Source: Sphingobacteriaceae bacterium (GTDB lineage Bacteria; Bacteroidota; Bacteroidia; B-17B0; Aurantibacillaceae). From it: 64,000 nt of DNA. Positions 43,229-63,156 of this stretch are shown piece after piece. The position numbers were made by a program, and so were the translations under genes. The number at the start of each line of letters is the position of its first letter. Within the stretch, counting starts at the first letter, position 1. The notes beneath the pieces are model-generated. The model worked only from the letters and a program-made list of their open reading frames with translations, did no database searches and had not been told where the DNA came from. The stretch lies in NCBI GenBank assembly GCA_002319075.1, contig NVQB01000001.1, positions 5,332,001-5,396,000 of the forward strand, written 5' to 3'.

Positions 43229-44091
43229 TTAGTTTTTTAAATTTATTAGTTCAATTTCTTCCTGATTTTTGGGTTTTCTTTTCTTTCTTAAAGAGTCTCC
43301 TTTCATTTCAATACGGTGTGCATCATGTATAATTCTATCCAGGATCGCGTCAGCGATTGTTTCCTCTCCGATGACTTCGTGCCATTTGTTTACAGGTATT
43401 TGGGAGGTGATGACGGTTGAAGATTTGCCATGCCGGTCTTCCATTATTTCCATGAGTGTTAACCTGCTTTGTGCGTCCAGTGGTTGTATTCCAAAGTCGT
43501 CGATGAGTAAGACTTGTTGTTTTTCGATCTTGGCAAGTTCTTTTAAATAGGATCCGTCTGCTTTTGCGATTTTCATTCTTCCAAAAAGTTTTGTGCTGTG
43601 CTGATACAAAACACGATACCCGAGCGCGCAAGCTTGATGACCAATGGCAGAGGCGATAAACTTTTGCCAATACCAGTGCTTCCGGTGATGATGATGTTTT
43701 CTTTTTGTTTCACGAACTCACAATCTGCAAGCCGAAGGATTTGATTTTTATCTATTCGCTTGTTCTCAAAACTCAACTCTTCAATGCTTGCTTTGTAGCG
43801 GAAGCGTGCCGATTGCAGTGTTCTGTCGAGTTTACGATTGTAACGCTCGTCCCATTCTGAGTCTATCAGGTGAGTGATCATTTCATCGGGAGTAAACTTT
43901 TCGTTCTTACCTGATTCAAGGGTTAGGTGGAAGGCCTTGGCCATTCCCAGCAGACGCATCTGCCGCATTTTTGTTAAGATGTCATTCATGGTTTTGTTTT
44001 TATTTTTTATTTTATTGATAGTAATGAGGCCCACGTATATTCTCATGTGTAGGCATATTTTCTTCCCGCAGATCTTCTTCTTGTCTGTCAA
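43229..44091 (-). pseudogene. istB: istB, frameshifted
   Basis: An IstB helper ATPase gene. The 5' part (44091 to about 43660) includes Walker A GSTGIGKS; the 3' part (to 43229) has VLLIDDFGIQPL and HRIEMKGDSLRK. A one-base loss near 43657-43661, just after GKS, splits the frame: the continuation should read ...AIGHQ, which is still encoded in the next frame. Confidence 0.85.
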
Positions 44092-45555
44092 GGTTGTTCT
44101 TTAGGATGTCTTCGATGATCTTGTAATTGTAATAACCAATCTCATGAGCACGCTTGCAGGCTTTAATTAATCGTTGATTGCCAACACGTTTAGCAAAAGA
44201 TAAAATTCCCATGCAGGATTTATAAGCTTGTTCGGGATGTTGTTTTCGTTCCAGAACTTTACTTACAAAATATTCTACAACTGGATCAATCTCTTTTGCT
44301 TTACTAAGAAAAAATGTAGGGCTCCACTCAGTTACATAGCGATGCTGCGCTGGCATGTGCGCAGGGTCTGTAGAGTAGTTATGGGGACTGCGCAAGCGCT
44401 TGTGACTTGCTACAAGCTCGTACTGACGGTAAAGTCCAACCTCAGAGCGGGAGTACTGCATCTTAAGTTTCTTACCAATAAGTTCATAGGGAACACTGTA
44501 GTAATGCTGATCTTCACTCAAATAAACGTGTCCGTTTTTCATAACAGTGACTTGTTTTATCTTTCGCATTTCATAAAGTGAGTCTACAAGTGGATGAAGC
44601 GAGGGCAGTTCCATTTTCCATTGATCCGTTCTTGAACATTCTTTACCGGTGAGTTTAGCATCGTTAAGCGCTTCAAGATGTGTTCTGATTTGCTCATTAA
44701 GCTCGCTTAGAGGAAAGATCTTCTTCTCGGACAGGTTGGTGTAGATCTTTTGATAAGAGAGCTTCACCATGTTCTCTACGTGAGCCTTGTATTGTGGTTT
44801 GCGGGAGCGTGCCGGAAGAATTGCAATACCGTAATGGTCAGCGAAGGCCGTAAAATTTTCGTTTACTAACGGTTCATACCGGCTTGCTTTTATTACAGCC
44901 GACTTTAGATTATCAGGAACAATAGCTAGCGGTACACCTTTAAAATAGTGAAGAGCATTCTCACAAGCACTAATAAAATCTTCCACGTTTTGACTCTGCA
45001 TGGCCTCTACGTATGCGTACTGGCTCCATCCTAATATGGCCACAAAGACTTGTGCGTTTTTTATTTCACCAGTATCTGTATCTACAAAAGGAAGCGTAGC
45101 TCCCGCATAATCTACATACATTTTATCGCCAACCTTATGCTCTATGTGCATAGTTGGATTTACTTTTTTACTCCACTGATTGTAATAAATGTAAAACGAT
45201 GTGGCCTTGTAACCCTTTGGATGCAGCGTTTTGTAAACCTAAATTTGTTTTAAGATCGTCATCCCACGTCTACGCATTTGTTTTTCCATCTCAGGAAAAA
45301 ATTCATGCAGTTGTTTTAAGCGCTCATTGGATTGTATTACTTGTTGTGTGGGTGAAAGAGTTTATTTAACTCATAATCGGTGAGTTTGATTAACTCCTCG
45401 CAAGGTCGGCGCAAGGCCTGATACTGTCCAACATAAAGCTTTACAGTGTTTTTTGACATGCCTAAGCGTAATCCTATTTTTCTTTTGCCAATTCCCTGGG
45501 AATGAAGCTTGATGATCTGACGTACTTTGCTCATACTAATTGCTTTATTGGCCAT
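44012..45555 (-). pseudogene. istA: istA transposase, frameshifted and with an in-frame stop
   Basis: The amino-terminal helix-turn-helix (KVRQIIKLHSQGIGKRKIGL) is at 45337-45555. It loses frame near FHP (about 45350), and further on a TAG (45239-45241) replaces a sense codon before VYKTLHPKGYKATS. The rest from 45151 to 44012 contains the catalytic domain (KVGDKMYVDYAG, VPDNLKSAV, KAHVENMV). Transposition is therefore no longer autonomous. Confidence 0.85.
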
Positions 45556-46208: not shown

Positions 46209-47396
46209 TCAAATATTAAGAACTTTTATCGCCTTTATTCCATCTACTTTAAATACACGAGTAGCTTGTCGAAGATGGCAGTAGGCTTTCAAATAAGTTA
46301 ATGATACTTCTTCAGATAGGTCTTTTCCCTGTTCTTCTCCGACTAATTCAACGTCACTTATTACCCTCTTTGTCTCATCATCTTTAAAATCTTTATAAAT
46401 AATCCAATAATACTTCTCTTTTCCAACCTTATCAATTAAGTGCTTAATATTTTCAGCATTTATTAAACGCCCGTTTACTTTATTAGAAACTAATTTGAAA
46501 CTTGGTAATTCTTCTGAATACCATGATTCAAGAATCTCATACTTAGTTAATAAAATTGCAAACTCTTCTAACATGGCGTTAAATAGATTAAATGCAGATA
46601 CGTAGTATCGCCCTGCCCTATAATTAATCTTTTTTGGATCAACTAATATTTTTTTGGGAGGACTACCTTCTTTGGCGGATGGAAATGTTAATATTAAATG
46701 CTTGTTTCTTTCAATTGCATCTTTTAATGGTTCCAAGGCGTCTTTATTGAATTCGGGAATTTTAGATAACGCGTCAATTGGAATAAGAACTTCCGTCATT
46801 TTTTCTGACGCTGAATTATAATATTTACACTTGACAAGTGTTTTTGAAATAAAACGCTTTGGCCTTTGAGTATTAAGATCTCTTAAGGGTTCTTTTATCT
46901 CGTTCTTAGTGGTTCCAATAACCTGCATTATAGGGCTTACAAAGCTTAGCTCAGCAGTAACAGACGTTTCATTTTGATTGTTTTTAAATTTTAAGCTACT
47001 TTTTTTCTTGCCTAATTCTATCTCAGAACCTCTTAGCTCAACCAAATCGCCATATTTATAATTTACTAGCTCATCAACTGGCTTTATTATGCGCAATAAT
47101 CTTGATGATATCCAAACCTCTTCAAAATGAAAATTTTTGCTAGAAAACCAAATGCATTTGCATTGAAAGTTTTTATCATCTTTTCCGTCTATCAAATCTC
47201 CTGTAGTAGGATGGTAAGATTTTTTCTCTGGCGTAGTTTCAACAATCACCATCAAAGGTGAAATTATTTTAGGTTCACCTGAATAAACAATAATATCAGA
47301 ATTCACTTTTTCCGTATAGAAATGGCTCTTCAAAGCTACAACTGTGCCGTTTTTCCATTCTGTTGGATTAACCGGAATTCCTGTTTCAGTATCCAT
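46209..47396 (-). CDS. Protein with carboxy-terminal WYL-like domain
   Basis: A 395-residue protein. The first 110 residues and residues 110-210 are two unknown beta-rich domains. The carboxy terminus (about 310-390: YWIIYKDFKDDETKR, LTYLKAYCHLRQATRVFKVDGIKAIKVL) matches the WYL pattern, in which A-Y-C-H-L-R precedes a core strand. No helix-turn-helix is evident at the start, so it is not a classical WYL repressor. It may be a ligand-sensing component of the adjacent defence genes. Confidence 0.6.
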   Translation of the reverse strand: MDTETGIPVNPTEWKNGTVVALKSHFYTEKVNSDIIVYSGEPKIISPLMVIVETTPEKKSYHPTTGDLIDGKDDKNFQCKCIWFSSKNFHFEEVWISSRLLRIIKPVDELVNYKYGDLVELRGSEIELGKKKSSLKFKNNQNETSVTAELSFVSPIMQVIGTTKNEIKEPLRDLNTQRPKRFISKTLVKCKYYNSASEKMTEVLIPIDALSKIPEFNKDALEPLKDAIERNKHLILTFPSAKEGSPPKKILVDPKKINYRAGRYYVSAFNLFNAMLEEFAILLTKYEILESWYSEELPSFKLVSNKVNGRLINAENIKHLIDKVGKEKYYWIIYKDFKDDETKRVISDVELVGEEQGKDLSEEVSLTYLKAYCHLRQATRVFKVDGIKAIKVLNI

Positions 47397-47759: not shown

Positions 47760-47898
47760 GGTCTTTATGGCTTGAATTATTAGTTTCTTCTTCTGATTTC
47801 GAAAATATAGTGACTCAAGAATTTGGGTACTGGTTCGACCCGCAAGGGTGTATGTCTTCGAAGTGTCCGCTACAGCGACTGCAAAGTTTTTTTTAATT

Positions 47899-49470
47899 AT
47901 GGAAGAAGAATACAACTGGCTCAAATCAAAAGGGTATTTACACATTACGGCTCAGATTGATATAGCTCAACGTAAAACAGAGATCTATAATAAAGTCACC
48001 GATCCGGGTTATGTCGCCCGGTATTCTTTTTATCCTCTAATTCATCTAATTATTGACGAGCGCAAATACAAAAAAACTGGATTGCCATATCCTCAACGAG
48101 CCCACTCATACATTGATAATAAAGGCGAGCATAAAAGAACTGTCAAAAACCGACCCTTGCATTATGCTACTCATTTAGATGCCATAATATTTGGTTACTA
48201 CGCCGAGCTTTTACAAAAACGTTATGAAATTAGTCTACAAAAATATGAGGGGTTAAGTGACTGTATTATTGCTTATCGAAAAATACCCACTGGGGTTGAC
48301 GACACTAATAAAAGTACCATTCATTTTGCCCATGAAATATTCGAAGAAATAAGAACTCGTACTAACGAAGGACGAGAATGTTTTGTACTTGCCTTCGACA
48401 TTAAAAGCTTTTTTTCGCGCCTTGATCATTTAATGCTGAAGAAAGCTTGGATGAAGCTGCTTGACACAAATAGGTTAAGTCCAGACCATTATAATGTTTT
48501 TAAAGCAGCTACTAATTTTTCCTACATTATGCGTGATGAACTGCGAATAAATAAAAAACTAAAATCTGGAAAAAAGTCCCCTTTTGACGAAAAAGAGCTG
48601 GCAATGATTAGGAATAAAAAAGGATTTCATTCCTTTTTCGAATCACCAAAAGCATTTAGGGATAGAATAAAATCAGGAAAGCTAAAGATCTATAAGCATC
48701 CATTCAGAAATGATGAGAAAGAACCTGTAGGCATTCCGCAAGGCTTACCTATAAGCGCCATTCTTGCTAATTTGTATCTTTTAGAGTTTGATATTAACAT
48801 CCTTGATGAGCTTGTAAATAAAAAAGGGTGCTATTACAGGCGCTATTCCGATGATATTGCTATTATTTGCGACGTAGAACAAAAAGATTTTGTGGAGGAT
48901 TTTGTTAATACATCTATTAAAGAAAGTAAAGTGCGTATTAGCGAGGGTAAGACAGAAAAATTTCATTTTAAAGTAAGTGATATACATAGCAAAAGTCCAA
49001 GACTTACCTGCTTTAAAGTATCTAAAGATGGAAATTATACCTATTCGCCATTTATATATCTGGGTTTTGAGTTTAATGGTAGCCACGCCTTAATAAAATC
49101 ATCCAATTTGTCAAAATTCTATCGGCGCATGGTATTTGCGGTTAGAAGAAAGGCCAAGCGTGCTTTAAAAACCGCCGAACTACAGCCTGGAAGCAAACCA
49201 GTTGTATATAGGAGACAATTGTATAAGTTGTACAGCGCTTTAGATCTTAGTACTGTAAAAACGCATACACGCTGGAAAAAGCTACTTAAGCAGGAAAATG
49301 GTGAGTTCAGATTAATAACAGGAGTTAAGAAAAGACCCTTAAAAAGTAACTATTTCAGTTACGCTAGACGCGCCACTGAAATAATGAACGAGCCAAAAAT
49401 CTATGGCCAAACACGAAACCACAAGAAAATTTTTAATCAAGCTGTTTCTTGGCATTTAAGGGCAAAATAA
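47899..49470 (+). CDS. Reverse transcriptase, defence-associated (Abi/DRT-like)
   Basis: A 523-residue protein; I choose ATG 47899 (MEEEYNWLKSKG) over 47848, whose first 17 codons look non-native. RT motifs are present: FVLAFDIKSFFSRLDH (motif A), GIPQGLPISAILANLYL (motif B) and YRRYSDDIAII (motif C, catalytic DD) near residue 317. A thumb and helical carboxy-terminal domain follow. There is no maturase or integrase domain and no group II intron is seen, so it is not an ordinary retroelement RT. Surrounding defence genes suggest an anti-phage DRT/UG-type RT, but the exact class is uncertain. Confidence 0.8.
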   Translation: MEEEYNWLKSKGYLHITAQIDIAQRKTEIYNKVTDPGYVARYSFYPLIHLIIDERKYKKTGLPYPQRAHSYIDNKGEHKRTVKNRPLHYATHLDAIIFGYYAELLQKRYEISLQKYEGLSDCIIAYRKIPTGVDDTNKSTIHFAHEIFEEIRTRTNEGRECFVLAFDIKSFFSRLDHLMLKKAWMKLLDTNRLSPDHYNVFKAATNFSYIMRDELRINKKLKSGKKSPFDEKELAMIRNKKGFHSFFESPKAFRDRIKSGKLKIYKHPFRNDEKEPVGIPQGLPISAILANLYLLEFDINILDELVNKKGCYYRRYSDDIAIICDVEQKDFVEDFVNTSIKESKVRISEGKTEKFHFKVSDIHSKSPRLTCFKVSKDGNYTYSPFIYLGFEFNGSHALIKSSNLSKFYRRMVFAVRRKAKRALKTAELQPGSKPVVYRRQLYKLYSALDLSTVKTHTRWKKLLKQENGEFRLITGVKKRPLKSNYFSYARRATEIMNEPKIYGQTRNHKKIFNQAVSWHLRAK

Positions 49471-49479
49471 CAGTTGTTA

Positions 49480-51639
49480 CTATGTTTTACTCCCACAGTA
49501 GGGGCAAAAAGCGAAGAGCTTTTCAAGCTGACTGGAACAACTACCACATACTTCAATTTTTTCAATTACAGACTTAATAGGCAGACTAGTCTTTACAGTA
49601 AAATTATCAGGTATTTCTTTTAAAAAACTCGACTCATTACCTTTCTCAGTGATTAGAAATAGCTTGTCTTTCGCTCTTGTTATAGCTACATAAAAAAGTC
49701 TACGTTCTTCTTCCAGAAGAAGGTCGTGATCTGCCTTTTTGATTACCTGAAAAATTCGATCTTCGAGCCATATATCAGGAAATCCGCCGTTTCCTTCTGT
49801 AAGACCCAGGATGAATACAACCTTTGCTTCAAGCCCTTTTGACGCGTGGATTGTCTTCCCTTGAACTTTTAAACCTTCTGTTTTAAAGCGAAAAAAATAT
49901 GGAGAAAACATCTTACTTCTTCTGTATAAAAAAAGTATATCGTCATTTTTTATACCATCTTCTAATAACTCCCTAATCTTAGTAACGCAAAAGTTAATAT
50001 TTTCCTCCTCCTGGCTTCCTGCAAAAACCACAATTTTATGTTCTGACATCTTGGAGGCCGAAACCTCTTTTTCAACTTTAAACTTATTATGCTTTATAAC
50101 CTCATTGCTGGCACCAACAATGTTTTGAGTACTGCGATAATTGAGGTTTAATTTAATAGTTTTTGAATTTTGAAAATGCTTTTCAAATTCAACAATGTAG
50201 CTCACATTTGAGCCTCTAAAACCATAAATACTTTGCCAATCATCGCCTACGCAAAACAATTGAGTATTAGGGGTTAGAAGTAGCTTTATAAGCTCTACTT
50301 GTAGGTTATTTACATCCTGAAACTCATCAACCAAAATATATTGATATTTCTTTTGAAATTGATGAACAATATCAGGTTGGTTTTTAAATAGAGAAATCGC
50401 GGTCGAGATTAGATCATTAAAATCAAGATAAGATTTGTTTACACAATATTGAATATATTTTTCAATTATGGGAATAGCAACTCTATAAAATGCGCGAATT
50501 CGCTCATGTTGATCGGTTTGTGATTTTTCTAAGATTGAGTTAATATCAGTATTTTCAACCTTTATCATATCAGTAATCCGCATTACTTGGACTACAAAAT
50601 CCTTAACATCTTCATGGTATTTATTAAATTCTTCTTTAAATGATAGAGTTATTGTTTTATGGTAATCAAGTGGTAAGCGGCTTTTTACAATTTTGTCTAA
50701 TGTATGGTTGAATAAGGCCGAATCATTCGTCATACTTTCATATGTTTTAACTAAAAGTAATTTGCCTTTTTCGAACTGATCTTCTTTTGCTTTTATTGGG
50801 TGACTCTTATCGCTGATATGCTCTATATACAAGTTTGCATCTGGAATATAAAAATCCGGCCTGAAATCAAAGTCTTTTACATTTAACAAAGGCTCATATT
50901 CATATTTTATGCTATGCCTGTATAGCCAATCAGCAATTGATTGTTCAGATTTAGAGCGCACTTTATCACCATTTAAAGTGGTGTAATACTTTCCATCTTT
51001 AGGAATCGAAATCTTTTGATTTCTTTCAATATGAATTCTATCAATGATATAGTCAAGAATATACTTTTTAAGGTGTAACAGGTACTGGGTATCTTCGCAA
51101 AGTTCTATTACTATTTTATGAAAAACTTCAAAAACCGTTTCAGGGGCGGCATACTTGGCCAACTCATCTCCATCGTCCTTTTTTTCGTCTCCGATTATTC
51201 TGAATTTATTGTCAAATTCATTAACACCATAATTTCGCAAAATGTTGTAACAAAGCCCGTGAAATGTTTTTACCGTGAGGCTATCAACCCACTTATACTT
51301 TTTGACGTATGCGTACCTTGCAGTATCTTTTTCTACTTTGCTTTTATATTTATCAAAAAGTATGGCCTCAAATTCTTTCGATTCATCTGCGGAAATAATT
51401 AAGCGATCCACCATTTCATTGGTGGCATTTTTGGTAAAAGTAATCGCTAGGATATTCGAAGGGCTTACACCTTTCTCCTCAATTAAATAGATTAGTTTTT
51501 GAAGCAAGGTTTTGGTTTTCCCAGATCCTGCGCCAGCTAAAACTAAAAGTCTTTTATCCTCACTAATAACAGCCTCTCTTTGCTTATCGTTAAGCGCACT
51601 CAGATCTGTTTTCGTCAATTGGGGAACTACTTTGTCCAT
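49480..51639 (-). CDS. UvrD/HelIV-like superfamily 1 helicase with nuclease-like insert
   Basis: A 719-residue helicase. Motifs: Walker A LAGAGSGKT near 34-42, ITFTKNATNEM, DEFQD, VGDDWQSIYGFRG, LNYRSTQNI, HASKGLEAKVVF and FYVAITRAKDKL. Between motifs Ia and II an insert (about 225-280: SEQSIADWLYRHSIKYEYEP ... FRPDFYIPDANLYIEH) resembles the restriction-nuclease-like insert of helicase IV. The carboxy terminus has a zinc ribbon (CGSC...CPYC). It probably unwinds damaged or foreign DNA. It converges on the RT gene (10 bp apart) and lies 44 bp after the Rx4H gene on the same strand. Confidence 0.9.
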   Translation of the reverse strand: MDKVVPQLTKTDLSALNDKQREAVISEDKRLLVLAGAGSGKTKTLLQKLIYLIEEKGVSPSNILAITFTKNATNEMVDRLIISADESKEFEAILFDKYKSKVEKDTARYAYVKKYKWVDSLTVKTFHGLCYNILRNYGVNEFDNKFRIIGDEKKDDGDELAKYAAPETVFEVFHKIVIELCEDTQYLLHLKKYILDYIIDRIHIERNQKISIPKDGKYYTTLNGDKVRSKSEQSIADWLYRHSIKYEYEPLLNVKDFDFRPDFYIPDANLYIEHISDKSHPIKAKEDQFEKGKLLLVKTYESMTNDSALFNHTLDKIVKSRLPLDYHKTITLSFKEEFNKYHEDVKDFVVQVMRITDMIKVENTDINSILEKSQTDQHERIRAFYRVAIPIIEKYIQYCVNKSYLDFNDLISTAISLFKNQPDIVHQFQKKYQYILVDEFQDVNNLQVELIKLLLTPNTQLFCVGDDWQSIYGFRGSNVSYIVEFEKHFQNSKTIKLNLNYRSTQNIVGASNEVIKHNKFKVEKEVSASKMSEHKIVVFAGSQEEENINFCVTKIRELLEDGIKNDDILFLYRRSKMFSPYFFRFKTEGLKVQGKTIHASKGLEAKVVFILGLTEGNGGFPDIWLEDRIFQVIKKADHDLLLEEERRLFYVAITRAKDKLFLITEKGNESSFLKEIPDNFTVKTSLPIKSVIEKIEVCGSCSSQLEKLFAFCPYCGSKT

Positions 51640-51682
51640 AATATTATAAATTTAGCTAAAAGCGTTAAATTATTCATACTAT

Positions 51683-52606
51683 TTAATCCATTTGCTCGAA
51701 TTTTTGAATTTCAGGGATAATGAGGCTGGGGGTCATAAAATCAATACCTGACTCATAAATGATTGTATTTTTTACTTTATTATATTCTTCTTTCCAAGTT
51801 TCGAATTCATAAAGATTAAAAGCTGATGAAATTTTGACTTCCAAATTTGTCTTATGTTGTTTTGCGGTTAAAACATTATTTTCAATAACTGGATCAATAA
51901 TTTGAAGAGTGAAAATTTGCGGAACAGCCGCTTCATTCTCTTTTTGAGAAATAGGAAACAACGGAACACATAAAAAAATATATACCGGCGAGGAGTGCTT
52001 ATTGTTAATAAAAAGTAGTTTAAAGCGAAAAAGAATATTTTCTTTTTTGTCAAGAGTAAGTATTAATGACTCGCATAAATTCGATTCGTTCTGATTTTTC
52101 GTGAATGTATGCTCAAGCGCATTTCTTTGCAGTCTAAGAGAAACATCTTCATACATTTCGTTGATGGTACGGGAGACGAACTCAACTCTATGCCAAAAAA
52201 CAATCCCAGCAAAGCTATAATGCTTGGGATGAGCGAAATAATTTCTTGTCCACTTGAGGTGTTTTAAACCTTCTAAATTTAAATCAAATAGGTTTAATGC
52301 GCTTAACTCTCCGATGAGATTATTAAATGTAAGGTCTTTTGAACCCGGAAAAAAATCCTTGTATCGAATGCTCATAGCCATTTCAAAAGTGAGTAGGGCT
52401 TTTGCATAAGCCTCATCAACAAACCTATATTCATAATAACCAAATATCATAAGCTTTTCGATAACTTCGAAGTTTTTTATTACGTCTTCGGGGACGCCTT
52501 TTCTAAAATAAAACTTCGGTATTTTTAAGCAATAATCTTCAAAACTGATATCCGCACATAGTGGATGAGCTTTTAGATACAATTCTTTTGGGGAGGGATT
52601 ACTCAT
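51683..52606 (-). CDS. Protein with HEPN-like Rx4H motif
   Basis: A 307-residue protein of unknown family. The helical first half holds WTRNYFAHPKHY, giving R121-x4-H126, the active-site pattern of HEPN ribonucleases. The second half is beta-rich (RFKLLFINNKHSSPVYIFLCV). HEPN RNases are common in abortive defence. The motif alone is suggestive, not proof. It lies 18 bp downstream of the 1229-residue nuclease-like gene and before the helicase, consistent with one operon. Confidence 0.5.
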   Translation of the reverse strand: MSNPSPKELYLKAHPLCADISFEDYCLKIPKFYFRKGVPEDVIKNFEVIEKLMIFGYYEYRFVDEAYAKALLTFEMAMSIRYKDFFPGSKDLTFNNLIGELSALNLFDLNLEGLKHLKWTRNYFAHPKHYSFAGIVFWHRVEFVSRTINEMYEDVSLRLQRNALEHTFTKNQNESNLCESLILTLDKKENILFRFKLLFINNKHSSPVYIFLCVPLFPISQKENEAAVPQIFTLQIIDPVIENNVLTAKQHKTNLEVKISSAFNLYEFETWKEEYNKVKNTIIYESGIDFMTPSLIIPEIQKFEQMD

Positions 52607-52624
52607 TTTGGTTGTAGAGTTTAG

Positions 52625-55600
52625 CTATGGTTTGGTTGAAGTTTTGAGATTGAATAAACAACCACTTCCTTCTCTACGAAGCTGTGCAAAAGAAAATATT
52701 GGAAAGGGTAAGATTTCTTTTTTTAAATATGCAGTAGGAATTTCTTCGGAAGTTATGACTACAGATTTTATGCAGTAGGCGAGGGGATTTATTAACAGAA
52801 CTTTTAGTTTATCTAGATTGCTTTTGAGCCACTGGTCGCGAATAACATGTTTTTGTAGCATTCCGGGCATACCATCCCTTCCAAGATATTTGTCCATTTC
52901 TGTTTTCATGGCATGTACAACTTTAGCATCAACGGTGTTTTTGCACTCTATAGAATAGATTATTGACTGTTTATGATCTATTGCCATGATATCAATATCC
53001 CCAATATCTATAGTGTTATTTAGCAATTCGCCAGGGCCAATTTTTACTTCATCGGGCTTCACGTCCAACTCTGAGTTAGAACTCAGCCATTCTGTTACTA
53101 GGTTTCGAAAGTGATGACCCTTTTTTGTGTTAATGGCCTTTACAAGTTTATCTAGTTCCCCACCAGATTGAACATGTAAAGATCCATTTAAAAGTAAAGC
53201 AAGTAGATTGTCAAACGCAGCAAATAGATGTCTATAACTCCAGTAATAAATAGTTCTGTTATTTCTGGTAAGTTTAGCGATTGGCCTTCGTATGAAGGAC
53301 AGCTCACGGTTGTAATGCCAGGGATAGGTATCTGAATTTAAAAATCCCTGAGGAGGGATACCAACCTTCCAACCCGAAATTAACGAGAGAGCTTTTAAAG
53401 CTGAGGAGATTTCCGCCGTAGACCAATTAGAATCTTTTAGAATTTCACTATAAAGATCCGATTCATCGGCGCATACTAATGTTGCATTTTTGGTACGAGT
53501 AAAATGCGCAAGAGTTGTAATAAAGTCGTTTAGTCGTAAAAATTCTATACCCCAATCTGCTTTAAATGCTTGATTAATTTCTTCAAGCTCAGGAGAAATA
53601 TCGATGGGTATTTTTGAATCCGGTATATCAAATAATTCCCCATAGGCTTCATTATGATGAAGTATTTCATTTTGAGACCGTGCTACGTTAAATGGATAGA
53701 GTTGGGAATTGATCGAAGGATAATCAACTTTTAATCTTCCGCATGGTAGTAACTCGATTGCAGGGTCATACAAGCCGAGATTTAGGCCATCAGATAAAGT
53801 GGCCCAAGCAATCATTTCGTTCATGAGAGCAATTAGTTGATCCATATCATCAACAGACGGTAGTTGATGACCTATGATCGGCTCACTGTCATAAGCTACA
53901 ATTAATTCAATTAAGCAACGTAGTCCAAGGGCCGTTCTAACACGCTCTTGTTCATTAACTATCAGTTTAAGTACTTCTTCAGAGTGCGAATCAAGACAAG
54001 CAATTCGAGCAGGAAGATCTAAACTACGGATGGCGCGTAATTGAACGCAAGCTTCATTATTACTCATAAGGATGAGAAGCAACGATTCGGGTTCATAACG
54101 CCTAAAGCTGTCTATTATTTTTTGATGGATAACTGTTGCTATTTTATAACTGAGTTTCTTTTTGTTTTCTGTGGTAGAAAGGTCACTGGGCTGAATAGTT
54201 ATTCCATAGTTACGGGTCAAAGATGTTTGAACACTTGATATATCGGCTTGCTGGATTTTTCGATACGGAGGTAAGAACCGTTTTTCCATCTGTAAGTTAT
54301 TTGCATTAGCTAACATACTTGACATTTTTGCTGGACCTTTCGGCATTATTATGTCAAGAACGTTAACGAGTTCGACATGTTTGTCTTCACTAATAATTGT
54401 CTTTAAAAAACTAAGCATTACATGACGCTCACCGTCGTTGTGAGGTTTTGCATACCAATGTGCCATCTCAAGTGGAATAGTCAGTGTTATTAGATTAGAG
54501 CTGACTTTAACAGGAATAACAATATTCACTAAATCGACTATAGGCACTTCATGAAGCCTTACCTCTTTTTCAAAACGGTTATCAATTATTAAATTAATAG
54601 TAATGGGATCTAGATTTGTAGATTCAAATAAATTTCTCAGCTGATTACTCAGCCTGTATGACCAAAAGGCTAGCATCTCTAATTGTGAGCTAACCAATTC
54701 TTGATTCAGTTTTTCTTTTTGATTGTTGACAAACCAAATTGGAACTATAAAATCTTCTAGTAGAATGTCCGGAGGATAATTATCCCATCCTTCCATATAA
54801 AAGGGAGCATAGGTACAATATTTGAACACAAACTTATATGTCATCTCTCCACCTACTAATTGAGGAGCAATGTGTTCTTCCCTATCAATAATAGATTTAT
54901 ATCTATATCTCGCTGATGAACCAGGAGGAATTACTAACAAACCTGGCTGCTCTTCTCCCTCAATCCATAAGGAGTAACCGTTAGTTTTATAAGCGAAAAA
55001 TACATCAAGCATACCGCCATTATGTAGTAAATCCATCTCTTCTGAGGCATGAGTATAGCTGCGAGCAAATTTCCATAGCAACAATGGATCGGGTTCTTCG
55101 CTCAACGCTATAAATTTGAACTCTGTTACTTTAAAATGAAGTACTAATACATCTTTAGAAGTAGACGGAACCGCATAGGATTCGGAAGGATATGCGTCTG
55201 AAATTATATAGACGGTAAGGATTAACTGTTCGGGTAAGTCAAAAGTTTTAGAAAGATGATTTAAGACTTCAATTTGTCGCTTTTGCAATCTAGCACTATA
55301 TTCTACCAGTGGCTGTGGATGCTCTTGATAATTATCTTCCGCAATTTTGAGATCAACTCCCTTCTTAATAAAACAAAGATAAACTAGTTTATTAAGTTCT
55401 AATTTAAATACAGACTCTTGGAATAGATCTTGGTCAAAAGATGTAGGCAAGCCGATATCTATTAAAGGCCACTGCATTTTTCGTGCATACTCTTCAACTT
55501 GATTCATCTCAAAACTTTGGAAGAGATTTTGAAGTAAATCATAACAATTCTGGGTTTTGGCTTCCTGCCATATAAAATTTATAAGGCATTCAACTAGAGA

Positions 55601-56314
55601 AATTGGTTGAACCAAAATATACTCATCCTCTATTTTGATAAATGGCTTTTTGTTTAAAGGAGAATTGTATGGTAAATCCTGTAAAAGGCCTGTATCATTA
55701 AGGTTTGTAACAAAGATGTCGATAAGATCAACACTTATTTTCTGGTTAAGGAAATGTTCGGTAAGGTTTTGTTTACTAAAGGTAACTATACTTTTTAACT
55801 CTTGAAGTTGATCCTCTAGTGGAAAATTTAACGGTTTTTTCAATACTTTTTCAAAGTAATTATAGGAAAAACCAGTCTTTTCAGAGACTAATCGTGATAT
55901 GCCAAGAATTAGCATTGCTGAATTGTAAATATTGTCTCTGTATGATTTAGGAAAGCTCTTGTCCTTATCATATATAAAAATCGTCTGAAGCAACAAGTTC
56001 AGAATGCTAGTACCACTGTACGTAATACCTGGAAAAACGGTATAATTTTCACTAAAAAACATAACGTTTTCCGTGAAAAGATTTATTGGGTAATCTTCCC
56101 ATTCCGACTCTGCATATTCTCTAGCGGTTATTTCTTGAAACTTAGATATTGGAACCTTGTTTGAAAAGGAATTAAGATTAGTAACAGTAACTCGAGCGAG
56201 AGATTCTAGTCTAACTTTTTTGCCATGATTTTGTGGCAATAATTGCATTGCCCCAATGATTTTCAATAATTCTGAACTATTGTAAATTTGGGCAAATTGA
56301 GTGTATTCGGTCAT
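52625..56314 (-). CDS. Very large protein with carboxy-terminal PD-(D/E)xK-like nuclease domain
   Basis: A 1229-residue protein. Most of it is not recognised. Near residues 1100-1125, DIGDIDIMAID...IYSIECKN has the D...E-x-K spacing of restriction-type nucleases. The long amino-terminal part may be a sensor or scaffold. It heads a unit with the Rx4H protein and the helicase. A defence role is inferred from context and the nuclease motif. Confidence 0.62.
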   Translation of the reverse strand: MTEYTQFAQIYNSSELLKIIGAMQLLPQNHGKKVRLESLARVTVTNLNSFSNKVPISKFQEITAREYAESEWEDYPINLFTENVMFFSENYTVFPGITYSGTSILNLLLQTIFIYDKDKSFPKSYRDNIYNSAMLILGISRLVSEKTGFSYNYFEKVLKKPLNFPLEDQLQELKSIVTFSKQNLTEHFLNQKISVDLIDIFVTNLNDTGLLQDLPYNSPLNKKPFIKIEDEYILVQPISLVECLINFIWQEAKTQNCYDLLQNLFQSFEMNQVEEYARKMQWPLIDIGLPTSFDQDLFQESVFKLELNKLVYLCFIKKGVDLKIAEDNYQEHPQPLVEYSARLQKRQIEVLNHLSKTFDLPEQLILTVYIISDAYPSESYAVPSTSKDVLVLHFKVTEFKFIALSEEPDPLLLWKFARSYTHASEEMDLLHNGGMLDVFFAYKTNGYSLWIEGEEQPGLLVIPPGSSARYRYKSIIDREEHIAPQLVGGEMTYKFVFKYCTYAPFYMEGWDNYPPDILLEDFIVPIWFVNNQKEKLNQELVSSQLEMLAFWSYRLSNQLRNLFESTNLDPITINLIIDNRFEKEVRLHEVPIVDLVNIVIPVKVSSNLITLTIPLEMAHWYAKPHNDGERHVMLSFLKTIISEDKHVELVNVLDIIMPKGPAKMSSMLANANNLQMEKRFLPPYRKIQQADISSVQTSLTRNYGITIQPSDLSTTENKKKLSYKIATVIHQKIIDSFRRYEPESLLLILMSNNEACVQLRAIRSLDLPARIACLDSHSEEVLKLIVNEQERVRTALGLRCLIELIVAYDSEPIIGHQLPSVDDMDQLIALMNEMIAWATLSDGLNLGLYDPAIELLPCGRLKVDYPSINSQLYPFNVARSQNEILHHNEAYGELFDIPDSKIPIDISPELEEINQAFKADWGIEFLRLNDFITTLAHFTRTKNATLVCADESDLYSEILKDSNWSTAEISSALKALSLISGWKVGIPPQGFLNSDTYPWHYNRELSFIRRPIAKLTRNNRTIYYWSYRHLFAAFDNLLALLLNGSLHVQSGGELDKLVKAINTKKGHHFRNLVTEWLSSNSELDVKPDEVKIGPGELLNNTIDIGDIDIMAIDHKQSIIYSIECKNTVDAKVVHAMKTEMDKYLGRDGMPGMLQKHVIRDQWLKSNLDKLKVLLINPLAYCIKSVVITSEEIPTAYLKKEILPFPIFSFAQLRREGSGCLFNLKTSTKP

Positions 56315-56406
56315 GGCAAATACTTTATCAGATTAATTTCTATTTTGATTAAAGATAAATAAGTTTTGAAGATTAAAATGCAAGCGTAAATTTAAAAATG
56401 AAGTAG

Positions 56407-56432
56407 AAAAAGGGCGGTAAACCGTCCTTTTT
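56407..56432 (-). terminator. GGCGGTAAACCG-type terminator (copy 2)
   Basis: GGGCGGT-AA-ACCGTCC followed by T-runs on both strands, after the STAND NTPase gene. A further hairpin GCGCC-TTTTTA-GGCGTT follows at once. Confidence 0.7.
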
Positions 56433-56497
56433 GCGCCTTTTTAGGCGTTATTTCAAATTTTAAGGAATTATACAGTTAGAGAATTGATATCATCAAC

Positions 56498-59400
56498 CTA
56501 ACGTAAATTGATGCTTTTCAGGCGATGATTCATAAAATCAACCACATCTTGTTTCGAAATATCTCCTGTCCCTAAACAACCTTCGATACATTCATCAAAA
56601 ACTTCTATTTCTTCAACAGTCAGGTTTGATTTGGCAGCGCTATACATGCCTTCGATCTCTGAACGATACTGTTTATTTATTTCCGACAGCCAAGTTGATT
56701 CAATATCGCTATCTGTATCCAAGTTCTCTCTGTAGTCTAAAAACTTACCAAGCAACTGCATTATTTTAAAAAAGGCCTCGTCTTTAATATTCTCAATGTT
56801 TTTTTGAACTTCAACACCCGGCAACGAAGAAATTTTAAGATTGTCGGCAAACAAAGGCAACGGATTGTCTATTTCCTCTTTATCGAACTCACCAGTTTCA
56901 ATGGACTTTCTGATCACACTGAAATAATCTTTAGTAACCCTTATACCGCAGACTGCCTTGCCTTGCGATATGAAAACAAAAGTAAAAAAGTTAATCTCCG
57001 TCTTATCAAAATCCAGCATTTTGTTTACTAGTATTGTAAAATCCTCACTAAGATCAGTTAGATTCGCTCCTTCAATGCCTATTTCAGCATATTTCAGGTT
57101 TTCATTCTTAATAATTTTATCAGGAAGCATAAGTGTTAGCCCATCATGGGCACCACCCTTTATTATTGAGTGTAGTTGCTCTAATTTTTGCTTTTCAGTA
57201 TTCTCATACCAGCGTTCAATGTCAGTTTTTATAACAAAAATTCGCCCTGGGTTTTTAGCGTTAATCATGTGAACATAAAACAATACTGTTTTTAGTAAAC
57301 GGCTATACCAGGTTAATTCTAAGCTACATAATTCATCGGTTGGATAATAGTCAAATGTTTCCTGGGTAATTTTATTATACGCTTGTTGCATTGCCCGAAG
57401 CTTGTATTCAACAGCATCCAGATTAATTACTGCAAGGTTTCTGTCGTTATTTCCCTTTGGAGCAACAATATTCACCATTTGATTCCTAAAATTCGTTAGC
57501 GATGTACACCAGCTTTTTATCGTTTCCTCTTCTGTTTTGTATTTATCTTTTTCAATGTAATCCTTATTATATTTAGGTAGCTTTTTACTTGAGTTAATAC
57601 TTTTCAGCAGCTTGTCGGCTGGGCTAGCCCATTCTTGCGCAGCACTTTTAATTCTAGCCTGGTTTTGCTCCAGGTACGCTTCAAATAACCTAACACACTT
57701 TTTTGCAAATTCAATTCCTGCCTGCCTTATTTCAATATACTGCATTTGCCATTCATATAACGAACCTACGCGGTAGTTAGCTACAAGAGCACCGTGCCAA
57801 ATCTGGTTAATATGTACATCAAACTTGTCTTCAAGGTTAGCTTTCGAAATTTGCTTTACTGAGTCCTGAATAACCACATCAAAAATCTGCTGGTACGGAA
57901 AAGGCAGCACTATGGCTTTTGAACAGTAGCGATCATAATCCGGCAAAAAACTGCTCAAAGCATCTATGCGTTTCATACTTTGATGGTTCGCTTTCCCAGT
58001 ATCCGCGCCTAAAAAATATTTAATGTGAATATCACCTCCATCTTCCTCAACAGCCAACGTATCTGTATGTTTCTTAAGCAACGAAATTATTTCCTTTTTA
58101 TTTTTTATTGTAAACTGTTTATATTTTACAGGAAATGCGACTTGATAATAGCCGAACAATTCAGCAGCCTCATCAAGCTCTTGCTTTCTTAGAACGTTTA
58201 ATAGTATGTCGTCATTAACATTCACTAATACTGGTACTTCAATATTCAAGCACTTATACCACCTCGCTAAAAAATCTAATCCTTTAAAAGAATGCGGATT
58301 ATCGATTGGCTTTATCTTTAAAGACAATTTTTTAAGGAAAATAAAAAGATCGGTTTTAGAGGCATCATATGGGCTAAGGCCATCCAGCAGGCCAATTACT
58401 TCGTCATAATTACTGTTATTATTATCAATTTCTTTCAATCGCCTCAACATATTTAATTTTGTATAAGGGAGCGTATCAAAAATAAATACCTCTAACGCAG
58501 CAGGGATGTTAGTAGCAACACGGTCAAAAGTTGATCGATTGGCAAGCCAGAATTTTTCTGCTTCATATTTCATAAGGCCATCCAATGCGCGAACCAAATT
58601 AGGTACTTCTTTTGTTGCCAAAGCTGTAGCAACTTCCTTGTAAATCTCGTCCTTTTCTGAAGCAGAAATTAACGAAGGAACGGCTTTAAAAAATTCGAAA
58701 ATATATTCCGAATTAATGATAGAGAATAGCTGCAACAAAGTTTCGGAAACCTGTATCGAGCTATGTAGTATATCCACTAAATGCCGGGATCGTATAGGGT
58801 GAAGCCCTTCCACATATTTTTCATTAAACCGGATATAGTATTCCTGTTCTAATTGTCGGTAAACTTCATTTCTATCCGTATCAAACCTTACGGTATTGAT
58901 AATATGCTGAGTGATTCGGTTTGTTTCAAGTTTAATATCCATTATATCCGCAAGAGCAATTAACCGAAGTATTTCTGCCTTGGCCGCGCCGCTGTTTTCA
59001 TTAGCAAGTTGTTTCACCTGTTCCTGAAGCCGCTCGGCTAGCATCTGGCCTCGTGTTAGCAAATACACATATTCTATCAACAGTCCTTTGGCTTCAACCT
59101 TTTCCCACGCTTCCTGCCATCCGTTGTTATCGGCGCTAATTTTGCCCTTTTCCTTTAATTGCAAATAAATTTCACGGGCTTCCTGTTGGGATAATTTAAT
59201 TTGCACCGGCTTTATTTTGATTTTCGAATGATCGTAGCCATACCGCACCCAATCTTCTTCGCGTGCAGTGATTAAAAATTTCACTGGACGTTCCTTTAAC
59301 CTTTCAGCAAGTATGCCCCAGCCTTCAACCATGTGGCCTAAACCATCAATTACAATCAGTGGTATTTGGCCAATATAAATTCTCGATTCTATCAGATCGT

Positions 59401-60445
59401 AGATCTGTGAGGCTTGATCCCAATCTTTGCAATAATTTAATTGAAAGATCGTATAGCCCTCTGTAAGCAAACTATAACTGGCTTGCCAAGCTAGAGTAGA
59501 TTTGCCCTGCCCGCTGGAGGCGCGTATAACTGTTACGTCAAAACCTGTGGCGCTTTCCTGGATTTCCTTTTCCCACAAGGGTCTTTTGACAGGCAGGTTG
59601 TTTGCAATATGAATCGGTTTTGCCGCCTTGCCATCAAAATAATCCATTATATCCGTAGATTCTGTCATCTCGAAATTTACTGGTAACAGCCAGCTATTTT
59701 GAATAGCAGGATTAACAGGAGCCTTGGAAAACGATTCGGTTGTTAATACAATCAACTCATCAACATTCTTTTTACTGATTGTAGATCTGTTTTTGGACCA
59801 TTGAAAGACACTATTAAAAAGCGCATTAAAATATTGTTTTTCTGTCCCTACATTAAGGCAATACTTCTTCGCCAATAGCTTGAGGCAATTATTTAACAGA
59901 TCAATTTCGTTGGTTTTTTCAATCGTGATTGCTGCAATAAAAGCCGGAAAGTCAATTCCTAAAACATCAAAACCATTTTCTTTGAACCTATTTTTCCAGT
60001 ATTCTAAGGTTTCGTTTGAATAATTACGATTAAAAAGACCACGCAATTTTCCCTCGGTAAAAGCGGAATTATGAACTAGCTTAAATTTGGCCGCAGGATC
60101 AATTTTATATGCTTCAAGAAAATTTTGAAGTACTTTCATTTCCCAAAAGGCACTCGCGCCAATTATGTTTTTAGAAGTCTTAAGCTGCACATACTCTGTG
60201 GTATCTATCTCACCCAAAAAGTCGATATCCTCAATGCCTTCAAGGCGTATTTGGTGGCTTTCTTTGTCCAGCATTGTAAGAATAAGAAAACAGGAATACA
60301 AGAGCTGAAATTCCACGCCCCTGATATTGTTAGCACCACCGGTTCTCCTATTAACCAACACTTCCAAACCAGTAATTTTACCGTCTTTTACAGCGGCAGC
60401 CTGGGTTAGCTTTGTTTTTGGTTTATTATTCTTTGTCTTACTCAT
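56498..60445 (-). CDS. Avs-like STAND NTPase with Cap4/DUF4297-type nuclease domain
   Basis: A 1315-residue protein. The amino terminus (about 35-110) matches Cap4/DUF4297-type dsDNA nucleases: GGANNIRGVEFQLLY, LEGIEDIDFLGEI and EYVQLKT (the D...Q-x-K active site). A P-loop NTPase domain follows: Walker A ASSGQGKST at about 309-317, Walker B PLIVIDGLGHM near 365, and FLITAREEDW. The rest (about 500-1315) is helical, as in STAND sensors. This architecture is that of antiviral Avs-type proteins that detect phage proteins and then degrade DNA. It stands alone between terminators, as expected for a single-gene system. Confidence 0.78.
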   Translation of the reverse strand: MSKTKNNKPKTKLTQAAAVKDGKITGLEVLVNRRTGGANNIRGVEFQLLYSCFLILTMLDKESHQIRLEGIEDIDFLGEIDTTEYVQLKTSKNIIGASAFWEMKVLQNFLEAYKIDPAAKFKLVHNSAFTEGKLRGLFNRNYSNETLEYWKNRFKENGFDVLGIDFPAFIAAITIEKTNEIDLLNNCLKLLAKKYCLNVGTEKQYFNALFNSVFQWSKNRSTISKKNVDELIVLTTESFSKAPVNPAIQNSWLLPVNFEMTESTDIMDYFDGKAAKPIHIANNLPVKRPLWEKEIQESATGFDVTVIRASSGQGKSTLAWQASYSLLTEGYTIFQLNYCKDWDQASQIYDLIESRIYIGQIPLIVIDGLGHMVEGWGILAERLKERPVKFLITAREEDWVRYGYDHSKIKIKPVQIKLSQQEAREIYLQLKEKGKISADNNGWQEAWEKVEAKGLLIEYVYLLTRGQMLAERLQEQVKQLANENSGAAKAEILRLIALADIMDIKLETNRITQHIINTVRFDTDRNEVYRQLEQEYYIRFNEKYVEGLHPIRSRHLVDILHSSIQVSETLLQLFSIINSEYIFEFFKAVPSLISASEKDEIYKEVATALATKEVPNLVRALDGLMKYEAEKFWLANRSTFDRVATNIPAALEVFIFDTLPYTKLNMLRRLKEIDNNNSNYDEVIGLLDGLSPYDASKTDLFIFLKKLSLKIKPIDNPHSFKGLDFLARWYKCLNIEVPVLVNVNDDILLNVLRKQELDEAAELFGYYQVAFPVKYKQFTIKNKKEIISLLKKHTDTLAVEEDGGDIHIKYFLGADTGKANHQSMKRIDALSSFLPDYDRYCSKAIVLPFPYQQIFDVVIQDSVKQISKANLEDKFDVHINQIWHGALVANYRVGSLYEWQMQYIEIRQAGIEFAKKCVRLFEAYLEQNQARIKSAAQEWASPADKLLKSINSSKKLPKYNKDYIEKDKYKTEEETIKSWCTSLTNFRNQMVNIVAPKGNNDRNLAVINLDAVEYKLRAMQQAYNKITQETFDYYPTDELCSLELTWYSRLLKTVLFYVHMINAKNPGRIFVIKTDIERWYENTEKQKLEQLHSIIKGGAHDGLTLMLPDKIIKNENLKYAEIGIEGANLTDLSEDFTILVNKMLDFDKTEINFFTFVFISQGKAVCGIRVTKDYFSVIRKSIETGEFDKEEIDNPLPLFADNLKISSLPGVEVQKNIENIKDEAFFKIMQLLGKFLDYRENLDTDSDIESTWLSEINKQYRSEIEGMYSAAKSNLTVEEIEVFDECIEGCLGTGDISKQDVVDFMNHRLKSINLR

Positions 60446-60613: not shown

Positions 60614-61477
60614 ATGAAAACCACTATTCCCAACCTTCCAGCGCACAAACAGGCCGAAATAAAGACCATTGTTGCGGCCTTGATCCCAAGGTTTTCCGAG
60701 ATTGAAATGATCATTTTATTTGGTTCGTATGCGCGCGGCACCTGGGTGGAAGATAAGTACATGGAGAAAGGTAATACTTACGAATATAAAAGCGATTACG
60801 ATTTGCTAATTATCCTGAGTAAAAACGGACATGCTAATAGCGACAGTGTTACTTCAGGCATTAGCACCAGGTTAAACGAATTAAAATTGGATACTCCAGT
60901 GCATCCTATTTATCATGGGATGGAATTTGTAAATAACGAACTACGCGAAGGCTCTTATTTTTTTGGCGATATTAAGAAAGAAGGAATCCTGCTATTTACA
61001 ACGAACCGTTATCAACTAGCCAATAAACGCGAAATGAGCCCGGCCGAAGTGCAGGTAAAAGCACAACGCGATTTTGATAATTGGTTTGAGAGTGCGAATG
61101 GATTTTATGGAATGTATCAACATGCCGTGAGTGTTGATCAAATAAAAATTGCTGCCTTCCAATTGCATCAAGCTACTGAACGCTACTACGGCGCTATTCA
61201 ACTAGTATTTACAGGGTACAAGCCAAAAACACATAACATAGAAGAACTCGGCAACCTTGCCAAAGCCTGTAATATGGAGTTCGGCAAAGCCTTTCCGCAG
61301 GCATCACCTCAAGAGCGCCAACGCTTTGAACTTCTTAAAAAGGCTTACGTAGATGCCCGCTACAATATGGATTATACGATCAGCAAAGAAGATCTGGATT
61401 ACTTAAGTGAACGCGTGCAAGTACTACGCAAAATGACAGAGGAGATTTGCAGGGGAAAGATTTCTAGCTTTATTTAA
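60614..61477 (+). CDS. Nucleotidyltransferase fused to HEPN domain
   Basis: A 287-residue fusion. Residues about 28-115 form a minimal nucleotidyltransferase (LFGSYARGTWVED, KSDYDLLIIL). Residues about 150-285 form a HEPN domain (IKIAAFQLHQATERYYGAIQ, THNIEELG). In MNT-HEPN pairs the nucleotidyltransferase silences a HEPN RNase by AMPylation; here both are one polypeptide. It is divergent from the STAND gene by 168 bp and convergent to the nuclease-like gene. Confidence 0.8.
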   Translation: MKTTIPNLPAHKQAEIKTIVAALIPRFSEIEMIILFGSYARGTWVEDKYMEKGNTYEYKSDYDLLIILSKNGHANSDSVTSGISTRLNELKLDTPVHPIYHGMEFVNNELREGSYFFGDIKKEGILLFTTNRYQLANKREMSPAEVQVKAQRDFDNWFESANGFYGMYQHAVSVDQIKIAAFQLHQATERYYGAIQLVFTGYKPKTHNIEELGNLAKACNMEFGKAFPQASPQERQRFELLKKAYVDARYNMDYTISKEDLDYLSERVQVLRKMTEEICRGKISSFI

Positions 61478-62478: not shown

Positions 62479-63156
62479 CTAATCAATTTTAAAATGATTA
62501 ATCCACTTTGGATTTCCTAAAAGGGTTGAGTGCGAAATACGACCTTTAAATTCAGGAGCAAGATTCATCAACCCATCCTTTACGCTATTAAAAACGGGGT
62601 CGGGGAGTCTGCTGCTAAGAGTGATACGTCTAATGCAATTAATATCTAGTGGTACATCAAATGCTGGTTTTTGGTCTTCCTTTCCCAAAGCTATAATCCT
62701 GTATTCTCTTTCCGGCTCGAAAGGATCTCTTTTAAGATAAGGCAGTTGTTTAATATTCGAACCGTAGTCTGCAAGGTCGTTTATTTTCACATACTTCACT
62801 TTCCCGTGGCTTAAACTTTTTGTCTTATCAAGGCATTCGATTAGTTTCTTACGATCGAACTCTATACAACAACCACTGGTTCCGTTAGCAAAGGCAGTCC
62901 AATGATGAATGGTTTCTCTCCTGTCAGATAAACAAAGTGCATATATACTACCTGCTTTCTTTTTGTTTTTATATAGATCCATAGTAACCCTATCATTGTA
63001 ATCCTCCCAGAATGCAGGATTAAGCAAGGTTAATTTTTGCCTGGTAAGCATATCCATTAAAAATGGAATTGTAGTGAAGCGATTTAAGAAGTTGTCTTGA
63101 GATGTTGACATAGTGTTTTGTTGTAAATGTGTAAAAATAGATTTTAAGAACGACAA
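62479..63156 (-). CDS. DUF2971-family protein
   Basis: A 225-residue protein with the family signature HHWTAFANGTSGCCIEFD and YLKRDPFEPEREYRII. The Met at 63111 is an alternative start. DUF2971 proteins are frequent in defence neighbourhoods and have no proven activity. The gene lies between the nuclease-like and UDG-like genes. Confidence 0.75.
   Translation of the reverse strand: MSFLKSIFTHLQQNTMSTSQDNFLNRFTTIPFLMDMLTRQKLTLLNPAFWEDYNDRVTMDLYKNKKKAGSIYALCLSDRRETIHHWTAFANGTSGCCIEFDRKKLIECLDKTKSLSHGKVKYVKINDLADYGSNIKQLPYLKRDPFEPEREYRIIALGKEDQKPAFDVPLDINCIRRITLSSRLPDPVFNSVKDGLMNLAPEFKGRISHSTLLGNPKWINHFKID

Follow-up and report, generated by a model that had tools for sequence, protein, structure and literature searches.

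The genes P0001, P0002 and P0003 lie head to tail on the minus strand at positions 49480 to 56314 of a 64,000-nucleotide window, the whole stretch of DNA analysed, from a Sphingobacteriaceae bacterium (assembly GCA_002319075.1, contig NVQB01000001.1, positions 5,332,001 to 5,396,000). The three genes are predicted to form, probably, one defence operon. The reading preferred here, to which we give about an even chance, is a mosaic antiviral operon transcribed as a unit, in which a Upx-family DNase would be the core, accompanied by a HEPN-like RNase as backup and a helicase. It is preferred because P0001 was assigned to Upx by both profile and fold, because its catalytic residues were invariant, and because the HEPN motif was kept throughout the P0002 family. 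Moreover, that family stood beside DNA-targeting defence genes at 9 of 18 loci and appears to be a module that changes partners, and 2 of 4 close helicase relatives followed a nuclease gene. The short gaps within the trio, the hairpin before P0001, the convergent gene after P0003 and the defence-type neighbours are further reasons, and the same logic has been published for other HEPN families, as far as the available parts of the two papers go (PMC3710099; PMC12839542). Rather than an established new system, the trio appears to be known part types put together locally. The portable HEPN-like family of P0002 is its most interesting part and the one most worth following.

Gene organization

All three genes were intact open reading frames (ORFs): P0001 (1229 aa, 52625..56314), P0002 (307 aa, 51683..52606) and P0003 (719 aa, 49480..51639). 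The gaps were exactly 18 bp between P0001 and P0002 and 43 bp between P0002 and P0003, so the tandem arrangement given in the original prediction was exact. Upstream, 183 bp separated P0001 from a gene for a 1315-residue STAND protein, and a symmetric terminator-like hairpin, listed on the plus strand, was located in this gap (56407..56432), with A and T runs flanking the repeat on either side. The region held 14 terminator-like sites versus 10.3 ± 3.0 in shuffled sequences, which is not clearly above chance. Downstream, a convergent Drt2-like reverse-transcriptase (RT) gene ended 9 bp from the end of P0003. Because of the hairpin-bearing gap upstream and the convergent gene downstream, the trio is probably its own transcription unit, as predicted from the layout.

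P0001 is a divergent Upx-family protein

P0001 was scanned against Pfam, PADLOC and NCBIfam, and Upx was the only match better than E 0.05 in the three libraries. The PADLOC Upx model matched at E 2.4e-28 (best stretch, residues 527-1201) and the NCBIfam Upx model at E 9e-35 with 119.2 bits, which did not reach the equivalog cut-off of 1900 bits. Judged from these matches, P0001 is a distant Upx relative and not an equivalog. Furthermore, a profile built from P0001 and six relatives matched PDB entry 9wuf at E 2.9e-55 in three stretches that fall within profile positions 44-1222. For residues 31-1229, the predicted model had a mean predicted local distance difference test (pLDDT) score of 57.6 and a predicted template modelling (pTM) score of 0.41, and 9wuf, entitled 'Cryo-EM structure of Upx', was the only Foldseek match below E 0.001 for this model (E 2.3e-25). 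In the structural comparison it ranked first, with Z 27.9, 796 residues aligned, a root-mean-square deviation of 11.7 and 16% identity. The weaker PDB fold matches below 9wuf were middling and were not used; they comprised PD-(D/E)XK nucleases with Z of about 6-10 and a BspD6I-type match at model residues 40-418. Taking profile and modelled fold together, P0001 is a divergent Upx-family protein with a predicted C-terminal PD-(D/E)XK nuclease.

The putative catalytic motif, G1105-D-I-D-(x14)-E1123-C-K1125, was located at 52940..53002 (minus strand). All 7 aligned sequences, of which P0001 is one, kept D1106, D1108, E1123 and K1125, and the D...ExK end that had been noticed in the 1229-residue protein was therefore borne out (G1105-D-I-D...I-E-C-K1125).

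Relatives of P0001 were found at eight loci in a genome-contig scan (L016-L023, 25-34% identity) and at two more in a search of family genomes (L090 and L091). The L090 protein was 42% identical over residues 272-1223 and had no counterpart of the first ~270 residues. The L091 and L023 proteins were fragments, and L017 and L020, whose flanks are near-identical, were counted separately among the ten Upx-like loci. All 7 full-length Bacteroidota relatives from the genome-contig scan carried an N-terminal SEC-C zinc motif, which P0001 does not have; the profile alignment to the PDB Upx structure started downstream of this motif. A search with P0001 gave matches in 3 of 395 phylum genomes, and its family profile matched in 75 of 87 family genomes. 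Most of the profile matches were discarded, as they covered the SEC-C motif only, in ORFs mostly close to 1100 aa long that were taken as SecA, and G000, G445 and G419 were kept. No plasmid match was obtained with P0001.

Two neighbourhoods of these relatives were also recorded. At L021:4700-13669, a SEC-C Upx-like protein ended a same-strand cluster after a D12 methyltransferase, a McrB-like AAA_5 protein and a DUF2357-PDDEXK_7 protein. Upx-type proteins thus appear also to join sets resembling restriction-modification (R-M) systems. At L090:9808-12681, the Upx-like gene lay within a same-strand gene run, and the scanned neighbours matched no recognised family.

P0002 is likely a HEPN-like protein

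P0002 (51683..52606, minus strand) consists of an N-terminal part with E75 and R121-x4-H126 and a C-terminal part of about 130 aa. The Rx4H motif of the original prediction was present as R121-N-Y-F-A-H126 (52229..52246, minus strand). Shuffling P0002 2000 times produced an Rx4H motif in 428 cases, and the natural sequence contains two. The motif alone is weak evidence, and it is the conservation across the family that lifts it above chance. In an alignment of 19 members (P0002 and 18 relatives, which were 18-38% identical to P0002 in it), only M1, E75, R121 and H126 were invariant, and the residue following R121 was N or D in 19/19. Thus, the possibility raised in advance that Rx4H would not be conserved did not materialise. 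This pattern resembles the published definition of HEPN, given in the available part of PMC3710099 as Rx4-6H with N, D or H after the R and often an acidic residue upstream. The C-terminal region of ~130 residues was missing in 4 of the 18 relatives (L013, L014, L066 and L097).

P0002 itself matched no model at E 0.1 or better in Pfam, PADLOC, NCBIfam or PHROGs. Among the 19 members, weak matches to Pfam families of the HEPN clan were found: DUF4145 in 7 of 19 (best E 0.0074), and HEPN_Apea (0.0032), HEPN (0.022) and HepT-like (0.073) in a single member each. From its sequence, P0002 is likely a HEPN-like protein, and it is predicted to act as a metal-independent RNase.

P0003 is a UvrD-type helicase

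P0003 (49480..51639, minus strand) was assigned as a UvrD/PcrA/HelIV-type superfamily 1 (SF1) helicase that carries a nuclease-like insert and, probably, a zinc ribbon at its C-terminus. The Pfam matches were UvrD-helicase (4.1e-66) and UvrD_C (1.3e-26), with weak zinc-ribbon matches. The DNA helicase IV model (9.3e-76) and the PcrA model (2.4e-91) also matched, in agreement with the UvrD/HelIV-like helicase originally described. The best PADLOC model was RTasHel, the RT-associated helicase (6e-69), which was weaker than the general UvrD-type models; the PADLOC GajB models matched at 2e-64. An Rfam small RNA model, n00280, matched within the gene at 49643-49737 (minus strand) with 56.3 bits against a gathering score of 65.2. 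It was rejected as probable coding homology because its Rfam description reads 'included into helicase gene'.

The insert (50818..50955, minus strand) showed the pattern E232 ... P-D262 ... E273, which was common to all five aligned helicases, P0003 and four relatives. No Pfam nuclease model matched the insert; at the motif level it is possibly a restriction-endonuclease-like nuclease. The four close relatives were found in four genomes, at L062, L111, L112 and L113, with 81%, 77%, 67% and 54% identity, respectively. The helicase gene at L111 followed a gene for an Mrr-type endonuclease (Mrr_cat) by 70 bp, and that at L113 followed a NucS_C/PDC-S11 gene by 245 bp. No partner was recognised beside the helicase at L062 and L112.

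Gene neighbourhoods of P0002 relatives

The 18 relatives of P0002 were collected from the family, phylum and class genome sets and from plasmids, the plasmid search giving three distant HEPN-like matches. P0002 matched in 4 of 87 family genomes and 9 of 395 phylum genomes, and its family profile in 11 of 395 class genomes. For L094, whose match had one internal stop, a 291-aa ORF was used.

Type I R-M genes were found beside the P0002 relative at 5 of 18 loci. At L010, hsdM lay upstream on the same strand; at L063, HsdS and HsdR adjoined; at L066, the relative overlapped HsdR by 4 bp; at L068, HsdR and an N6 methylase started about 2.7 kb away on the same strand; and at L097, the relative was convergent with HsdR, 72 bp apart. 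BREX-type genes occurred at 2 of 18 loci, namely L067 (BrxA and BrxC) and L012 (a BrxC/D ATPase and a helicase). In addition, the relative at L096 overlapped an OLD/TOPRIM and UvrD pair by 62 bp, and that at L095 lay 85 bp from a SNF2/DEAD helicase. RtcB, a Panacea/MqsA-type antitoxin and an AbiEii-type gene were each found at one locus (L008, L009 and L014, respectively). L067 and L068 were sister branches of one genus with support of 100/100, and since these sisters sit in different defence contexts, BREX and Type I R-M, the P0002-like gene appears to change partners.

At L013:8797-14520, the P0002-like gene was about 0.9 kb from an annotated DEAD/DEAH helicase and a DUF1837 gene encoded on the opposite strand. 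We take these to be a Hachiman-type pair, and L013 is thus counted conservatively among the loci with no adjacent partner.

Search for the triplet in other genomes

The presence of partner genes was assessed by blastp against ORFs of at least 90 aa (at least 100 aa in one search) at E 1e-3 or 1e-4; for the Upx-like flanks, E 1e-3 was used for L016-L023 and 1e-4 for L090 and L091. The genome sets were overlapping samples, each including the own genome, and a rare triplet elsewhere is possible. The whole helicase matched in 86 of 87 family genomes, nearly all as general UvrD-type proteins, with one close relative (G402). The insert gave 13 matches in 395 class genomes, of which the five long ones, the own one included, were kept and eight short ones were dropped. 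L003 (E 8e-4, with an internal stop) and L030, L031 and L079 (E 6e-4 to 9e-4) were also dropped, as were L078, a short fragment whose neighbourhood was read in L114, and L002 and L011, which are the same locus as L018. The flanks of L012 (other end read as L015), L018, L021, L022, L066 and L112 were cut by contig or record ends.

At the DNA level, the full trio was present only in its own genome among 40 genomes of the genus, and the DNA of 49480-60445 had no match in plasmids. No viral relatives were obtained from scans with P0003, A3 and A5. The sole cross-match was between the UvrD protein of L096 and P0003, and it was weak (36% over 63 aa, E 1.7e-5).

Neighbouring genes

Family-library scans placed defence-type genes on both sides of the trio, and the defence island holds several unrelated genes of this kind. 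The convergent gene at 47848-49470 (plus strand) encodes a Drt2-like antiviral RT, with a PADLOC Drt2 match at 4.7e-134 and an NCBIfam score of 349.8 bits, slightly below the cut-off of 390. Divergent to it, a WYL-YodC gene (46209-47396, minus strand) matched an RT-associated model at 8.7e-95. On the other side of the trio, the 1315-residue STAND ATPase (56498-60445, minus strand; nSTAND_NTPase5 9.5e-10) is an Avs-like candidate; its N-terminal region resembled the LmuA nuclease (3.8e-13), and Cap4_nuclease matched at merely 0.028. The gene at 60614-61477 (plus strand) encodes a fused minimal nucleotidyltransferase and HEPN domain (HEPN 1.4e-9, Polbeta 1.3e-6), resembling the two halves of a toxin-antitoxin pair within a single protein. 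Moreover, the protein encoded at 62479-63156 (minus strand) matched the PADLOC candidate family PDC-S31 at 3.4e-15, and IS21-type transposase and helper ORFs, read from the ORFs without a family search, adjoined the island at 43229-45151 (minus strand).

Proposed mechanism

In the mosaic operon, the Upx-family DNase P0001 would probably recognise and cut invading DNA, and the helicase P0003 would unwind or process it, perhaps using the nuclease-like insert that it carries. Scans of ten neighbouring proteins turned up no methyltransferase, and recognition of phage DNA features is therefore the likelier way in which self would be told from non-self. P0002 would be kept inactive as long as the DNA attack works. 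A failed attack, or DNA ends or helicase engagement signalling trouble, might release it, and the released protein would then cut RNA and stop phage production or the cell. A similar arrangement has been described for other systems: in the part of PMC3710099 available, the proposal for HEPN proteins linked to R-M systems is that the partner inhibits them and that they are released once the DNA arm is defeated, and the available part of PMC12839542 describes HEPN RNases in BREX loci as backup effectors. By analogy, the trio would fit this backup scheme, its DNA arm being the Upx-family nuclease.

Several observations weigh against this reading. The whole triplet was absent from all fetched flanks, whether of the 10 Upx-like, the 18 HEPN-like or the 4 helicase loci. 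By blastp, no Upx-like flank held a P0002- or P0003-like gene, and no helicase flank held a HEPN-like or Upx-like one. Separate occurrence in relatives had been named in advance as what would speak against the unit, and the genes did occur separately in the relatives examined. Genes in a defence island can also come to lie close together with no functional link. The defence-gene count for the P0002 relatives was taken without a random-gene control, and no adjacent partner was recognised at 6 of 18 loci (L013, L064, L065 and L092-L094), whose neighbours were judged by annotation or first residues and not by family libraries; the nearest relative of P0002, L092 (39.7%), was among those with no recognised defence partner. 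As for the HEPN assignment, the single-sequence model of P0002 (pLDDT 33.3) did not confirm a HEPN fold, and the two PDB profile matches (E 0.7 and 0.99) were put down to chance. Unrelated models matched family members too, namely DUF7014 (two members, 0.041), RNR_N (one, 0.011) and KwaB (one, 0.00081), and a profile comparison with two DUF4145 proteins brought the RN..AH motifs together but did not confirm the fold.

One alternative is that the trio is three independent single-gene defences, a Upx-like DNase, a HEPN toxin and a helicase, placed head to tail and mechanistically uncoupled. This is a substantial possibility, if well short of even: every part occurs without the others in relatives, five HEPN-like relatives (L064, L065, L092-L094) and the 81% helicase relative have no recognised defence gene alongside, and the island itself contains unrelated defence-type genes. 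However, the same-strand gaps are very short and the trio is probably its own transcription unit. In addition, the HEPN-like family is repeatedly paired with nuclease or helicase systems, and half of the helicase relatives (2 of 4) lie with nuclease genes.

A second alternative, which is combinable with either operon reading and which we consider unlikely, is that P0002 is not an RNase but binds RNA or protein as a HEPN-like adaptor, or serves as an immunity factor for the neighbouring nuclease. The fold model and the PDB and profile comparisons mentioned above did not confirm a HEPN fold, and some HEPN domains are described as non-catalytic in the part of PMC3710099 available. On the other hand, the R, the polar N or D, the H and the acidic residue were all kept in the 19 members despite their low identity to P0002, which fits a catalytic site. 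It is quite improbable that the DNase and the HEPN-like protein alone form a functional pair while the helicase serves repair or the convergent RT locus, since the 18-bp gap, the RTasHel match and the nearby Drt2-like gene are set against an RT gene that is convergent and so not co-transcribed with P0003, an RTasHel score below those of the general UvrD-type models, and the lack of a blastp match (E 1e-4) to the RT protein of the window in the flanks of all four helicase relatives. Compared with these alternatives, the mosaic operon is retained as the preferred reading, and the trio is plausibly a set of three defence-type genes that probably share a transcript, built from modules that are found separately in relatives. 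Of the three-gene defence unit originally proposed, the defence role stands as plausible, given the Upx and HEPN-like assignments and the defence neighbours, and the claim to a demonstrated three-gene system does not.

Comparison with known systems

Upx is a single-gene anti-phage system. P0001 resembled it (NF042954, PDLC02221, 9wuf) in its length, its near full-length fold match and its C-terminal GDID...ECK nuclease. It differed in the low identity over the fold alignment and the score far below the family cut-off, and here the gene is followed by HEPN-like and helicase genes. Among the titles listed in literature searches, none was on the mechanism of Upx, and the unnamed gene set was not searched as such. 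The original prediction knew of no named system with this set; the trio indeed has no name, but its large protein belongs to the named family Upx.

Like the DUF4145-like and R-M-linked HEPN proteins in the available part of PMC3710099, P0002 has Rx4H and a conserved acidic residue, and its family shares operons with R-M and other defence genes. It differs in having no library match at E 0.1 and in its extra C-terminal region. The trio was also compared with Gabija, which combines the OLD/TOPRIM nuclease GajA and the UvrD helicase GajB. A nuclease and a UvrD-type helicase were common to both, the GajB models matched P0003, and the P0002 relative at L096 overlapped such a pair; however, neither P0001 nor P0002 gave an OLD/TOPRIM match, so the GajA partner was lacking. 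Furthermore, giant proteins combining HEPN, SF-I helicase and Vsr nuclease without a methylase are described in the part of PMC3710099 available. The trio likewise has a HEPN-like protein, an SF1 helicase and a restriction-endonuclease-fold nuclease and no methyltransferase gene, but in separate genes and with other nuclease and HEPN families, and Pfam gave no transglutaminase or wHTH match in P0001, P0002 or P0003.

A broader proposal, which is tentative and rather doubtful, is that P0002 represents a HEPN RNase family, so far uncatalogued, whose members move among Type I R-M, BREX, Gabija-like and Upx-family systems as a suicide backup, the Upx-HEPN-helicase set being the first multi-gene Upx-type system, with HEPN released upon a block of the nuclease or helicase. 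The occurrence of a divergent Upx protein with HEPN-like and helicase genes on a probable single transcript suggests that Upx can enter multi-part systems. If one HEPN-like family does serve R-M, BREX, Gabija-like and Upx-type loci, the proposal in the available part of PMC3710099 that HEPN RNases act as insurance for defences that cut DNA could be tested directly with that family.

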